Of a stretch of 12,172 nt of DNA, positions 6,008 to 12,172 are shown in pieces (position 1 is the stretch's first letter; each line of letters begins with the position of its first letter). The position numbers and the translations under genes are program-made. The notes beneath the pieces were generated by a model. That model had not been told where the DNA came from, did not search any database, and saw only the letters and a list, made by a program, of their open reading frames with translations. Source of the DNA: Flectobacillus sp. (GTDB lineage: Bacteria; Bacteroidota; Bacteroidia; Cytophagales; Spirosomataceae). Location: positions 1-12,172 of the forward strand of contig JARXAV010000190.1 of NCBI GenBank assembly GCA_029865665.1, read 5' to 3'.

Positions 6008-6212
6008 AATTGTTTTGGTATTAAGTTAACACAACAATTAGATAGCTAACTTCTCAAAAGGTTTAACGTATTTATGGGTTTTGACGTGTTATTTAAAAAG
6101 GTAGAGGCGGATTTGTGAAAGCAGAGCAAGGAGGTAGATTTTCAACCTTCAGACCACCCTAAGCTGGTTTCTTGACCAGATTGGATAGAAGTTAGCTTCC
6201 GTAAAATGGTTG
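6008..6212. other. Hairpin-containing intergenic DNA upstream of the serine hydrolase
   Basis: No gene found. The segment contains short inverted repeats, including CTGGT (6164-6168) with ACCAG (6175-6179) and GAAG (6188-6191) with CTTC (6196-6199). These run directly into the multi-hairpin element at 6213, so the element may start earlier than I have marked. The promoter of the serine hydrolase gene should lie here, but no good TAnnTTTG match is visible on the minus strand. Confidence 0.5.
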
Positions 6213-6278
6213 TGGTAGTATGGTCAAGGAATAGACCAAGCAAAATTTGCTTTAATACGGATTATAAATCAGCTACCA
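6213..6278 (+). repeat. Hairpin-array element, copy A
   Basis: An outer stem TGGTAG (6213-6218) with CTACCA (6273-6278) encloses three small hairpins: TGGTC/GACCA with an AGGAAT apex (6221-6238), AGCAAA/TTTGCT (6239-6251), and GATT/AATC with an ATA loop (6260-6270). Positions 6235-6271 match 11959-11995 at 30 of 37 bases without gaps, so this is a dispersed repeat and not a local fold alone. The orientation label follows the arbitrary choice of plus for copies A, B and C. Confidence 0.75.
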
Positions 6279-6290
6279 GATAGGGATATC

Positions 6291-6356
6291 ATTCAGTTAC
6301 AAACTGAAAAATAGGAGATACAGGTGTTAAGTGTAGCGTCACCTGTACCAGTGGAG
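6291..6356 (+). repeat. 3' module of hairpin-array element, copy A
   Basis: Contains a perfect 7-bp hairpin, TTCAGTT (6292-6298) and AACTGAA (6302-6308) with an ACA loop. Next comes an 8-bp hairpin, TACAGGTG (6319-6326) and CACCTGTA (6340-6347) with a 13-nt loop, running into CCAGTGGAG. The segment aligns with 7040-7106: 16 of 18 bases agree over the first hairpin, and the arms and tail of the second are conserved while its loop is not. Confidence 0.75.
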
Positions 6357-6390
6357 TAACCCGTATGAATAAAGTCCAAATAGCTTCTTT

Positions 6391-6416
6391 TGATGAAGTT
6401 TAGGAACGCTTCATCA
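6391..6416. repeat. 8-bp inverted repeat next to the glycine-zipper gene
   Basis: TGATGAAG (6391-6398) pairs perfectly with CTTCATCA (6409-6416) around a 10-nt loop containing AGGAA. It lies 6 bp beyond the stop codon of the minus-strand gene 6422-6883. It has no T tract on the minus strand, so it is a weak terminator candidate at best, and it may be another hairpin of the adjacent element. Confidence 0.5.
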
Positions 6417-6421
6417 GATTA

Positions 6422-6883
6422 CTATTTCACTTCTACATTTAATTGTCTCCCTTCATTCAACGCTTTTTTATCCAATCTCGACCCGATTGAAACCCCAAGC
6501 CCTAACCCGATTGGTAAGCCCAAGCCCAACAAGCCCATATTACCCATAGATAAACCAAAAGCGACTCCCATAGGTACGCCCAAACCAGACATACCAAGTG
6601 CTATCCCAAGGGTTTGATAATAGTTTTTAGGAACAAGATTAAGCTCTTTTTGAACCAGTTTTAAGACACTTGCTTGTTGTTGCTTAACCAGCTTTTTGAG
6701 TTCATTTGCTGAAAGAGACGACGAGTTTACTTGCTCCACACACGCATTAATCGTGAGGATAACCTGCTCTGGCAATTCTCTCTTATTTAGTTCATTTAGT
6801 AGCTCTCCGAACTGTGTATAAAGTTTACTCAATTTACTATCATTAGCGACATCTTGCCTATTTTTTAGCTCAATTATAGTCAT
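6422..6883 (-). CDS. Small glycine-zipper membrane protein, unknown function
   Basis: A 153-residue protein I do not recognise as a named family. Residues 1-85 are polar, predicted helical and rich in Lys, Gln, Glu and Leu (for example ELLNELNKRELPEQV and ELKKLVKQQQASVLKLVQKEL), suggesting a cytoplasmic coiled or helical domain. Residues about 91-134 are very glycine-rich and hydrophobic (GIALGMSGLGVPMGVAFG and GLLGLGLPIGLGLGVSIG), with repeated GxxxG spacing. This fits two glycine-zipper transmembrane helices followed by a short charged tail. There is no signal peptide. The gene stands alone on the minus strand between two same-orientation copies of a hairpin-array repeat. Proteins of this shape are common short hypotheticals; a pore-forming, toxin-like or membrane-scaffold role would be speculation. 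The frame on the opposite strand is a proline-rich shadow of the glycine codons. Confidence 0.7.
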   Translation of the reverse strand: MTIIELKNRQDVANDSKLSKLYTQFGELLNELNKRELPEQVILTINACVEQVNSSSLSANELKKLVKQQQASVLKLVQKELNLVPKNYYQTLGIALGMSGLGVPMGVAFGLSMGNMGLLGLGLPIGLGLGVSIGSRLDKKALNEGRQLNVEVK

Positions 6884-6951
6884 AACCGTATCATTTATAG
6901 TTGTTTATCGTGTTACTGTAAAGGCTTTAAGTTATTGAATCAATAAAGATG

Positions 6952-7019
6952 CCACTAATGTTAAACAGGATTGGAATCCTGTAACTAACCAGTACTTGAT
7001 AGGAATCAAGCACTAGTGG
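6952..7019 (+). repeat. Hairpin-array element, copy B (three-way junction)
   Basis: CCACTA (6952-6957) can pair with TAGTGG (7014-7019), closing a junction. Inside are ACAGGATT/AATCCTGT (6965-6972 and 6975-6982, perfect, GG loop) and AGTACTTGAT/ATCAAGCACT (6991-7000 and 7005-7014, 9 of 10 paired, AGGA loop). Both inner hairpins carry a GGAAT apex like the first hairpin of copy A. The arms differ completely from copy A, so only the architecture and apex are shared here. Confidence 0.65.
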
Positions 7020-7025
7020 TGGACT

Positions 7026-7114
7026 TATCGTTATTTATCATTCATTTACAAACAGAATAAATTTTAGGTATAGGTGACACTAGGCTTAATACCTGCACCA
7101 GCGGGGGCCTAAAA
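7026..7114 (+). repeat. 3' module of hairpin-array element, copy B
   Basis: It begins with TATCGTTATTTAT (7026-7038), which recurs with one extra T at 12000-12013. ATTCATTTACAAACAGAA (7040-7057) matches 6291-6308 at 16 of 18 bases. The sequence GTATAGGTG, then a 13-nt loop, then ACCTGCACCAGCGGGG (7068-7106) aligns gaplessly with 6318-6356. An additional pairing TTTTAGG (7062-7068) with CCTAAAA (7108-7114) could close the whole module. Confidence 0.75.
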
Positions 7115-7270
7115 GGATGTTAAAAATTGAATAAAATACAGCCAATTTTATCCTTGTATTGTAGATTCGATTTTGTTGATAAAAGCCTCTAATAGACTTC
7201 TACTATCAATTTTCTCTACTATTTCAACTCCCATTTTCACGAATCTTACTGTTAAAATATAAATTAGCCT
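7115..7270. other. AT-rich leader region upstream of the glycan operon
   Basis: No gene seen. It holds an AT-only inverted repeat, ATAAAAT (7131-7137) with ATTTTAT (7145-7151), and a possible TTGATA/TATCAA pairing further right. These are weak, and I assign no role beyond spacing between the repeat and the promoter. Confidence 0.4.
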
Positions 7271-7278
7271 TACATTTG
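7271..7278 (+). promoter_or_regulatory. Candidate -7 promoter element of the glycan operon
   Basis: TACATTTG matches the Bacteroidota -7 consensus TAnnTTTG exactly and lies 35 bp upstream of the first operon start codon at 7314, which implies a short leader. No convincing -33 TTTG is visible. A weak AAAGG at 7303-7307 could help translation initiation. Confidence 0.55.
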
Positions 7279-7313
7279 TAACTCAATAGGAATCCAACAG
7301 CTAAAGGTTAATT

Positions 7314-10793: not shown

Positions 10794-10823
10794 GAAAAAC
10801 AAAAAAGCAGGCGAAAACCTGCT
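10794..10823 (-). terminator. Intrinsic terminator for the DUF6438-like gene
   Basis: On the minus strand AGCAGG (10823-10818) and CCTGCT (10811-10806) form a 6-bp GC-rich stem with a TTTTCG loop. A run TTTTT, G, TTTTT follows directly. This is a classical intrinsic terminator, placed about 150 bp after the stop codon of the minus-strand gene at 10972. Confidence 0.8.
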
Positions 10824-10870
10824 CTTTCAAAATCTTTAAGTCGAACGACAAACTATAAAAGAAACCATCG

Positions 10871-10950
10871 AAGCCGACCGCTACCCCAGATTAAGTTCAA
10901 GACTAGCCGTCCGCCATGCCTTCATGGTTTGGCTTGCAGCCACCACGAAT
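10871..10950. other. GC-rich structured intergenic segment downstream of the accessory gene
   Basis: This 80-bp non-coding stretch is 55% GC by hand count, far above its surroundings. It contains a two-part hairpin: AGCC (10905-10908) with GGCT (10931-10934) around CCATG (10914-10918) with CATGG (10923-10927) and a 4-nt loop. It lies in the 3' part of the minus-strand transcript, before the terminator. Its role is unknown; a recombination site or a structured 3' RNA is possible. Confidence 0.45.
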
Positions 10951-10971
10951 GCTTAATTATTATGTGTAGGC

Positions 10972-11790
10972 TTATTTTTCCAATTTCCTTTTTTCAGATG
11001 TTCTTGTTAATAGTATTCTTTCATTTACTTGATATAAATATCCAATTAACTTGTCTGCAATAGTAGGCGGAAACATTGATTTTAAATATTTCCTCTTGCC
11101 ATTGTAATAAATAATTATTGTAGTTACTGGCCCATCTGCACCTTCTCTTGTAGGGAATATTAAATTATTCAAATTGCAAGTTTGTAGAATATTAATAAAT
11201 TCGTTGAATAATGTATCATCAAGTTTTCCAATAAATTGTCCTGATTTGTTGCTGTCGATTTCTCCAAATATTATGTTATCCTTATAAAACTCACCATCCA
11301 AATAGACATTCCCATTTTTATCTAATTCCAAGTCTATGGTTGGGCAATTTCCATAACAACTAGTGGTGTGATAAATTATCTTTTCAAAGAAAATGGTTCT
11401 GTCTAAATTGTATTCTTGTTTAATGAATTTAATATTAGTTCTATTTCCAAAAAAATTCTTGGACAATTTTGTTGAAGGATTAACTGTCAAAGTACTGTCA
11501 GTTTGGTTAATAATGACTAAGTCATATCTATCAATATATAGCTTGTTGTAATTAGTAGCAGATGAATAGTATTGTTTTTGGAAGCTCAAGACTTTTCCAT
11601 AATTGTAAAATGCCATTCCTTCATCTGAAGTAGAAGAGCATAACATATTTGAGTTGTCTGCAATATTAGAGGTGTCGCTTATAAACATTACATCATTTGC
11701 TCTTGAAACCCAAGTGCCTATTAATTTGTCAGTCTGCCCATAGGTATTTGTCCAAATTAGCATTGTTAATATGAATGTTGTGGTTCTCAT
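10972..11790 (-). CDS. Secreted DUF6438-like protein, unknown function
   Basis: A 272-residue exported protein with a signal peptide (MRTTTFILTMLIWTNTYGQ). The mature N-terminus (DKLIGTWVS) resembles the start of a lipocalin-type beta-barrel domain. Residues about 137-255 contain HTTSCYGNCPTIDLELDKNGNVYLDGEFY, then GQFIGKLDDTLFNEFINIL, then ADGPVTTIIIYYNGKRKYLKSMFPPTIADKLIGYL. From memory this matches the pattern of DUF6438, in which a CxxxCP motif (here Cys145 and Cys149) opens a small beta-rich domain. Its role is not known. The gene is alone, opposite to the glycan genes on both sides, with its own terminator. Its context (palindromes upstream, GC-rich segment downstream) looks like an accessory insertion. 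The DUF6438 assignment should be confirmed with a profile search. Confidence 0.78.
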   Translation of the reverse strand: MRTTTFILTMLIWTNTYGQTDKLIGTWVSRANDVMFISDTSNIADNSNMLCSSTSDEGMAFYNYGKVLSFQKQYYSSATNYNKLYIDRYDLVIINQTDSTLTVNPSTKLSKNFFGNRTNIKFIKQEYNLDRTIFFEKIIYHTTSCYGNCPTIDLELDKNGNVYLDGEFYKDNIIFGEIDSNKSGQFIGKLDDTLFNEFINILQTCNLNNLIFPTREGADGPVTTIIIYYNGKRKYLKSMFPPTIADKLIGYLYQVNERILLTRTSEKRKLEK

Positions 11791-11812
11791 AGCTTACCCA
11801 TAACTCTGATAT

Positions 11813-11828
11813 ATACGCAACTGCGTAT
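11813..11828. repeat. Palindrome ATACGCA-AC-TGCGTAT
   Basis: A perfect 7-bp inverted repeat with a 2-nt centre, 22 bp upstream of the start codon of the minus-strand gene ending at 10972. The position fits an operator or leader hairpin for that gene. The same stem recurs at 11941-11955. Confidence 0.55.
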
Positions 11829-11937
11829 TATTCTACGTAAAATTAAAAACTTTATTTTTAAAAGCAAGTCTGCCAATAAAAACCTCCAAACGGATTGATT
11901 TAACGGGGTTGTTAAGAAAATAAGTCTGCAACAATAC

Positions 11938-11958
11938 AAAATACGCATTGCGTATTTT
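11938..11958. repeat. Palindrome AAAATACGCA-T-TGCGTATTTT
   Basis: A perfect 10-bp inverted repeat with a single central T. Its core (ATACGCA/TGCGTAT) is identical to the palindrome at 11813-11828, about 110 bp away. It directly precedes copy C of the hairpin-array element and takes the place of the first hairpin in copy A. Confidence 0.6.
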
Positions 11959-12013
11959 ACCAAATAAAATTTGTTTTAATACTGGTTACAAACCAATGCT
12001 ATCGTTTATTTAT
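11959..12013 (+). repeat. Hairpin-array element, copy C (truncated)
   Basis: Positions 11959-11995 match 6235-6271 at 30 of 37 bases with no gaps, including the linker TTTAATAC. The last hairpin is TGGTT/AACCA with an ACA loop (11983-11995). The sequence TATCGTTTATTTAT (12000-12013) then matches copy B at 7026-7038. The 3' module with ACCAG(T/C)GG is not found after this point, so the copy appears incomplete. Confidence 0.7.
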
Positions 12014-12082
12014 TTCTAAACCATAAAACCGCCCTTTTGCTAAGACAATCCCTTCCTTTTCTCAAAAATCGGAAATCTTCTT

Positions 12083-12090
12083 TACCTTTG
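12083..12090 (+). promoter_or_regulatory. Candidate -7 promoter element of the GT2 gene
   Basis: TACCTTTG matches the Bacteroidota TAnnTTTG -7 consensus exactly and lies 21 bp before the start codon at 12112, implying a very short leader. No clear -33 element is seen. Confidence 0.5.
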
Positions 12091-12111
12091 TGCCAAATCT
12101 GTTTTCCACGT

Positions 12112-12172
12112 ATGGAGGTATCTATTGTTATTGTAAATTATAATGCTGCTCAATTGCTTATCAATGCCATTG
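12112..12172 (+). CDS. Glycosyltransferase family 2, N-terminal fragment cut by the window end
   Basis: Only 20 codons are inside the window: MEVSIVIVNYNAAQLLINAI. This is the typical first strand and turn of GT2 (GT-A fold) glycosyltransferases, where VSIVIVNYN opens the nucleotide-sugar binding fold. It is on the same strand as the glycan operon and follows its own promoter candidate, so it probably belongs to the same surface polysaccharide locus, interrupted by the accessory gene at 10972-11790. The acceptor and donor cannot be inferred from this fragment. Confidence 0.8.
   Translation, partial: MEVSIVIVNYNAAQLLINAI

Follow-up and report, generated by a model that had tools for sequence, protein, structure and literature searches.

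Intergenic hairpin segments on a Flectobacillus sp. contig as probable fragments of REP-like single-stranded DNA elements of RAYT group 5

The window analysed in this work is the whole stretch of 12,172 nucleotides of Flectobacillus sp. DNA (contig JARXAV010000190.1), and all hairpins are given on its plus strand. It contains two short intergenic segments, copy A (6235..6271) and copy C (11959..11995), each with two hairpins. Two minus-strand genes border copy A, which is downstream of the one that encodes a 153-aa protein (6422-6883) and upstream of the other, a member of the beta-lactamase family PF00144 (4937-6007). Copy C is located where two genes diverge, a DUF6438 gene (10972-11790, minus strand) and the gene that follows it. 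A third group of hairpins, array B (6952..7019), also lies between divergent genes, and a reading of C and B as terminators was rejected on this account. A scan of 9 proteins encoded in the window gave no match to PF01797.

The two hairpins of copy A are a middle one (6238-6252, AAGCAA-aat-TTGCTT) and a last one (6260-6270, GATT-ata-AATC). The first hairpin of copy C (11961-11973) can be read as CAAAT-aaa-ATTTG or in the register of copy A with one G-T pair, and the second (11983-11995) is TGGTT-aca-AACCA. The two segments align without gaps with 30 of 37 positions identical, as the original prediction had stated, and this is the top direct 37-mer match within the window: when partners at least 50 bases apart are compared, all direct pairs scoring 28 or more lie on the A/C diagonal, and the second-best match of copy A elsewhere in the window reaches 22 in direct or 23 in reverse-complement orientation. 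In 60 local first-order shuffles, scored in direct orientation only, the value of 30 was never reached; the best pair per shuffle scored 25 nine times, 26 in 31 shuffles, 27 in 13, 28 in six and 29 once. The similarity of A and C is thus confirmed as a real observation.

The seven differences between the copies are at positions 6240, 6241, 6250, 6259, 6261, 6265 and 6269 of copy A. Two of the changes are compensated, in agreement with what had been claimed earlier, i.e. the pair A6261-T6269 becomes G-C in copy C with pairing kept, and G6240-C6250 is replaced by A-T without a change of register. The pair C6241-G6249 becomes T-G, and the remaining seven of the ten stem pairs are identical in both copies. 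One detail of the earlier description has to be corrected: AAAATTTG is not a linker, it is the loop plus the 3' arm of the middle hairpin. For seven random substitutions the probability of at least two compensated pairs is 0.0026, of at least one 0.10, and of all ten pairs being Watson-Crick or G-T 0.018, all of which are somewhat generous values since the stems were picked post hoc from the sequence. For the same reason the compensation, observed between two copies of sequence only, is support and not proof.

It is unlikely, in our judgement, that the likeness of A and C arose by chance between two AT-rich, hairpin-prone stretches. A single shuffle did come within one identity of the observed value, the related genomes searched (see below) hold no further A/C copy, and a 27-base match in one genome spans the left edge of C, but no shuffle equalled the pair, four of the seven differences make up the two compensated pairs, and the homology that precedes C in genomes G048, G051 and others ends where C starts, as it would for an inserted unit. 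The density of hairpins is a less useful criterion. Counting hairpins of at least 5 bp with loops of 3-6 bases, the surroundings of A contain 3, which is unremarkable (64 of 300 shuffles equal that), array B is also not above shuffles, and the surroundings of C contain 6 (7 of 300 shuffles have as many). Hairpin density at a single locus was therefore dropped as proof, A and B being no denser than shuffled sequence.

Copy A is part of a larger array. The predicted fold places an enclosing stem around it (6213-6218 with 6273-6278, TGGTAG/CTACCA), and inside this stem, beside copy A, a further hairpin (6221-6238, TGGTC-aaggaata-GACCA). A GTAG is found 2 nt outside the latter hairpin, and another one outside 6260-6270 on the minus strand, which is an inverted pair as in canonical REPINs; the two GTAGs form the enclosing stem, and their hairpins have stems of 5 and 4 bp. 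The other 9 of the 11 window hairpins, including all three of C, are without GTAG or GTGG, and none of the 11 shows the canonical REP foot, i.e. GTAG or GTGG 0-2 nt 5' of a hairpin of at least 7 bp. Next come two modules which we call inner and outer type. The inner-type hairpin (6292..6308, TTCAGTT-aca-AACTGAA) is of the type that is found beside genes for REP-associated tyrosine transposases (RAYTs), and the outer-type hairpin with its foot ACCAG occupies 6319..6351 (hairpin 6319-6347, TACAGGTG-ttaagtgtagcgt-CACCTGTA). A second inner and outer copy is found at 7041..7101, with a decayed inner hairpin (7041-7057), an outer hairpin (7067-7099) and the same ACCAG foot. Together with the neighbouring hairpins at 6965-7010, this pair is positioned across the 153-aa gene from array A. 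When the two outer copies (6319-6351 and 7067-7101) are compared, the loop of the first copy only is reversed relative to the ACCAG foot, as though the palindrome had flipped. Array B has an outer frame CCACTA/TAGTGG (6952..7019) that encloses two hairpins, ACAGGAT-tgga-ATCCTGT (6965-6982) and CTTGAT-agga-ATCAAG (6995-7010). Directly before copy C there is a hairpin AAAATACGC-att-GCGTATTTT (11938..11958), which is half of a longer palindrome in other genomes. A perfect 11-base inverted repeat, AGCTAACTTCT / AGAAGTTAGCT, is located just left of array A (6044-6054 and 6187-6197, 132 bases apart), and its arms are paired in the predicted fold.

A protein encoded in the window led us to Emticicia and Lacihabitans (91-93% protein identity), and the 222 genomes of the family of that Emticicia were searched. 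The outcome differs between the core and its neighbours. No copy of the 36-base A/C core was found in the 222 genomes at up to 3 mismatches, and a 20-base half of it is not enriched in six relatives (10 matches vs 15 for the reversed control), but the neighbouring modules recur in a few genomes. The intergenic region 6008-7313 has matches in 10 of the 222, of which five cover the 153-aa gene only and two a short piece only. G046 and G124 hold parts of it, and G048 contains 7026-7112 at 85% and 7034-7101 at 87% identity with a third copy close by. Cousins of array B are dispersed at two loci of one genome (L084 and L088, 79-80% over 51-56 bases). A pattern for the outer hairpin was found in 3 of the 222 genomes (five matches in G046, three in G048, one in G107; the reversed control pattern gave 0), and the bare loop pattern gave 20 matches in 5 of 16 chosen genomes (nine in G046, six in G182; 2 for the control in all), at least two of which, L150 and L151, are stemless and chance-like. 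Some relatives carry the modules that adjoin copy A, and those of array B, as dispersed repeats; in terms of numbers, the window itself contains two A/C copies and two inner and outer pairs, and there are up to 9 loop-pattern matches in one relative (G046). Viral contigs were also scanned for A/C and outer-hairpin words, and the 10 and 19 stretches found had mostly coding contexts by eye and were taken as chance.

Covariation was counted in the outer hairpins. There were 40 candidates (38 tabulated ones, the hairpin of L093 and the reversed-loop copy from the window), 33 of which entered a first alignment; among the seven left out some are poorly paired. The covariation counts exclude the GTCGTAGG class (12 of the 40), and the removal of nine such hairpins, with arms one base over, from the 33 left 24. 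In these 24 we counted 34 double-change cells, compared with 12.8 +- 2.7 in shuffles (0 of 500 as high), while neither the number of pairs with a double-sided change (60 of 500 as high) nor that of further pair types (385 of 500) was above shuffles. The final set of 28, two of them from the window, was obtained by putting back four hairpins of the same register, including the stemless L150 and L151. It has 43 double-change paired cells vs 18.0 +- 3.0 in shuffles (0 of 500), 9 pairs changed on both sides (17 of 500) and 21 further types (5 of 500), and the shuffle figure is not a probability because some copies were found via stem-containing patterns and kin sequences are counted repeatedly. 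In the register counted, 74% of the cells of the 28 hairpins are paired, compared with at most 44% when the arms are slid, with 26 double-change cells in the best slid version. The loop ACGCTTCGCTWAA stays constant while the stems interchange (CAAGTG/CACTTG, GTCGTAGG/CCTACGAC, GTTGTTGGTG/CACCAACAAC). G-U pairs are scarce: they make up 11 of the roughly 207 paired cells, and 4 of these 11 belong to the closing pair.

The same hairpin types are found next to transposase genes. The four module-bearing genomes contain 20 matches to the Y1 transposase family PF01797, several of which are RAYTs bracketed by such hairpins. One RAYT (L106) ends in GGTCGTAGG-AACGCTTCGCTTAA-CCTACGACC-AGTG, whose loop and foot are those of the outer-type modules in the window. 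Another (L104) has GGTGCTGGAT-tcct-ATCCAGCACC on one side and CCAAGGAT-tcca-ATCCTTGG on the other; by eye these share the design of the window hairpins at 6965-7010, and the locus is in the same genome as the two array B cousins. Inner-type hairpins (GTT-nnn-AAC, 3-base loop) are seen beside RAYTs as CCGGTTacaAACCGG (L123), GACCGTTacaAACGGTC (L137) and GGCCGTTacaAACGGCC (L131), so that the intergenic hairpin style xxTTACAAAxx, noted earlier for Cytophagales, is real and stands beside RAYT genes. Both the inner type and the outer type (loop ACGCTTCGCTWAA, foot ACCAG) flank RAYT genes, often in inverted orientation. All five RAYT proteins tested scored above the cut-off of the NCBIfam model REP_Tyr_transpos (NF047646), and none of the five reached that of IS200. 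The RAYT motifs are NHFH...YIHQNP in L104, NHIH...YIHNNP in L108 and SHIH in L106; the published WQ motif is present in L104 and absent from L106 and L108. At E 0.001 or better the L106 RAYT has matches in 129 of the 222 genomes. A series of tandem hairpins, AACGATTC-tcct-GAATCGTT, is located immediately before a Y1 transposase gene in G048 (L105, 970-1160).

The flanks of the 30 best RAYT loci were analysed; one (L144) has a 3' flank of less than 100 bases and was left out of the hairpin count. With a criterion of at least 7 bp and a loop of 3-8, hairpins are present on both sides of the gene in 15 of 29 loci (shuffle mean 0.29, maximum 4), the other 14 lacking them on one side or on both, and 24 of the 29 have a hairpin on one side or more. 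The flanks have 70 hairpins in total (shuffle mean 6.4, maximum 14), and control windows 740-1000 bp off had a hairpin in 9 of 57 cases. A second test on all 30 loci, in which the stem is not presupposed, asked for outward pairing around short cores. Of 28 GTT...AAC cores near RAYTs, 24, 22 and 21 extend outward by a first, second and third pair, compared with 7, 5 and 2 of 16 far from RAYTs; for GTC...GAC cores the values are 47, 46 and 41 of 48 near and 15, 13 and 10 of 21 far, and the GTC core is not specific to RAYT flanks because far cores also pair well (15 of 21). Flanking hairpins of the kind that adjoin A and form array B were found at L106, L104, L119 and others. The A/C 37-mer itself resembles the RAYT flanks by inner-hairpin type only and not by sequence, and none of the RAYT loci read has A/C-like flanks. 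G132, a genome with 96.5% identity to the last 144 bases of the window, contains only a weak RAYT match (5.4e-4) and, by eye, a decayed hairpin pair (L250).

Taken together, we consider it fairly probable that both copies represent fragments of composite REP-like single-stranded DNA hairpin elements of RAYT group 5 (TnpA-REP subclass 2.6). Such elements would be non-autonomous and consist of successive short imperfect palindromes, which would form hairpins in single-stranded DNA and depend for their spread on a RAYT (HUH/Y1 family) of group 5, a group whose hosts are mostly Bacteroidetes. The transposase would cut and rejoin the hairpins at replication forks, and its recognition of the fold in single-stranded form could account for the compensated pairs of A and C. 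We infer that A and C belong to the same system as the RAYT-flanking modules from the shared inner-hairpin type and, for A, from the adjoining modules; this link between the 37-mer and a RAYT is an indirect one, suggested by hairpin design and by the presence of A in the same array, not by a matched pair. The idea that a dispersed multi-hairpin element is under selection for its fold is hence upheld, and single-stranded DNA is most likely the form in which the fold is selected, with an RNA fold as the rival.

Elements of this kind are known in outline from earlier work. Quentin et al. 2018 (PMC6006769) describe subclass 2.6 genes, mostly from Bacteroidetes, as flanked by "atypical secondary structures". 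These are weaker structures without the GT[AG]G consensus, and copies of them are present at other places in the genome. The earlier statement that no described function is known for hairpins of this style is not supported, a Bacteroidetes RAYT subclass with such flanks and genomic copies having been published. The likeness to the subclass as presented there extends to HUH/Y1 proteins of about 180 aa with the motif YIH[QN]NP, to flanking hairpins other than GT[AG]G and to genomic copies, and the RAYTs described here appear to fit it by length (about 180 aa), host and Y motif; unlike in that subclass, a cognate RAYT for A/C was not found in the 222 family genomes. The recognition signal of RAYT group 5 is given in the available text as 'atypical secondary structures' only. 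The present comparison adds concrete conserved parts, namely the 3-base inner loops, the 13-base outer loop and the ACCAG foot, which make a binding test straightforward, and it ties the intergenic TTACAAA hairpins of Cytophagales to a transposase family. Our description of the loop words (ACGCTTCGCTWAA and the 3-base inner loops) and of the ACCAG foot is sequence-based, and Table S1 of that paper may already list them.

It is useful to compare these elements to better known systems. The REP, BIME and REPIN elements of gammaproteobacteria are likewise clustered short intergenic palindromes thought to be moved by TnpA-REP, as PMC6006769 and PMC8266576 describe them, and according to the latter the E. 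coli TnpA-REP acts on single-stranded REP and needs the intact structure. Here, in contrast, there is no GTAG or GTGG at C or at the outer hairpins, there are several distinct short hairpins per unit, and the copy number in the scanned genomes is low. The ends of IS200/IS605 elements also carry subterminal single-stranded DNA hairpins that are read by a Y1 transposase, but the units in the window are without a transposase, and the RAYTs tested fall below the IS200 cut-off.

An alternative is that A and C are structured RNA elements, such as a small RNA, a 3' UTR stabiliser or an attenuator, with selection acting on the RNA fold. The compensated stems agree with this, the hairpins would also fold as RNA, and REP hairpins can act in RNA according to PMC12306157; nevertheless we regard it as improbable, given that Rfam gave 0 window matches at gathering scores, that no 3' UTR is expected between the divergent genes around C and array B, that G-U pairs are rare in the outer hairpins, and that the same hairpin types stand beside RAYT genes, often inverted across the two sides.

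The arrangement of outer hairpins allows a further comparison. Close neighbours run in the same direction in G046 (C3, C5, C45), G048 (C388) and G182 (C2), are opposed in G182 C26 and mixed in G046 C7 (L157). The numbers are small, and the same-direction hairpins could fit strand-specific insertion at replication forks. By eye, single small genes are located between two direct outer-hairpin copies and are opposite in direction to them at L085, L090, L148, L163 and in the window (6292-7101). L152 is a counter-example, the sole ORF of at least 80 aa between its copies (86 aa) running the same way; L167 has no such ORF between the copies, those of L162 are opposed and those of L157 mixed (also by eye). 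The gene concerned in the window, that of the 153-aa protein, has 112 hits across Bacteroidota (Flavobacterium, Pedobacter, Runella, Sphingobacterium), some of its relatives being named glycine zipper family protein. It has a match in only 18 of the 222 family genomes, i.e. its distribution is patchy, and it is perhaps mobile. We speculate, as a long shot, that the hairpin trains are cassette borders, in which single small genes bracketed by direct inner and outer units would be captured and relocated by a RAYT, perhaps aided by a neighbouring SSB/tyrosine-recombinase integron-like platform, with ACGCTTCGCTWAA in place of the GTAG guide of other REPs.

The stretch before copy C deserves separate mention. 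The region 11801-11958 has homology of 91, 83 and 80% in G048 and of 76% in G051, which ends at 11951-11958, just before C and inside a palindrome that continues in other genomes. The stop of this homology suggests that C is a separate inserted unit; the reading that the insertion is exactly at 11958/11959 is weakened by a 27-base match in G155 (26/27, L180) that spans this boundary. The stretch recurs at three loci in G048 and in G051 beside different genes (abhydrolase-like, CYTH, peptidoglycan-binding), DUF6438 being the neighbour in the window, and it resembles the attachment site of a platform of integron-like type. In G052 and G162, a gene for SSB and one for a tyrosine recombinase are followed by a stretch with similar palindromes.

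One could ask if the hairpins, instead of being REPs, serve an integron-like cassette system as recombination sites. We consider this very unlikely: C does adjoin an attI-like stretch, which follows SSB and tyrosine-recombinase genes in G052 and precedes varying genes in G048 and G051, and several outer-hairpin copies in direct orientation flank one small gene, but both sides of the hairpins are alike between copies without a break at the GTT core, the identical outer hairpin type is present at RAYT ends, and no such neighbour was seen for A. An attC site would have complementary R''/R' ends and a homology break at G|TT; the outer copies do not show this, being alike across GTTAAGC by eye.

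Other genomes have a different leader at the SSB/recombinase site, ending by eye in the same GAGTT. Among 17 loci read of 30 fetched, 16 have a recombinase frame of more than 200 aa, in one case truncated by a stop, and a loose pattern picks out an SSB-like ORF in 13. A single recombinase, that of L179, was compared with integron-integrase models, which it matches below their cut-offs (191 of 220 bits and 186 of 265). The work on IntegronFinder 2.0 (PMC9024848) names Salinibacter ruber M1 as its Bacteroidetes genome with a complete integron. The last 144 bases of the window (12029-12172) are 96.5% identical to G132 (L188, G132:C41), whose contig differs just upstream, so the gap with copy C is not common to G132. 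Finally, the stretch at 10795-10962 belongs to a 168-183 base type that follows a gene stop and occurs twice in direct orientation in G048 (L189, 2415-2597 and 3533-3715; 84%); judged by sequence it might be attC-like, and in G048 complementary ends are possible by eye.
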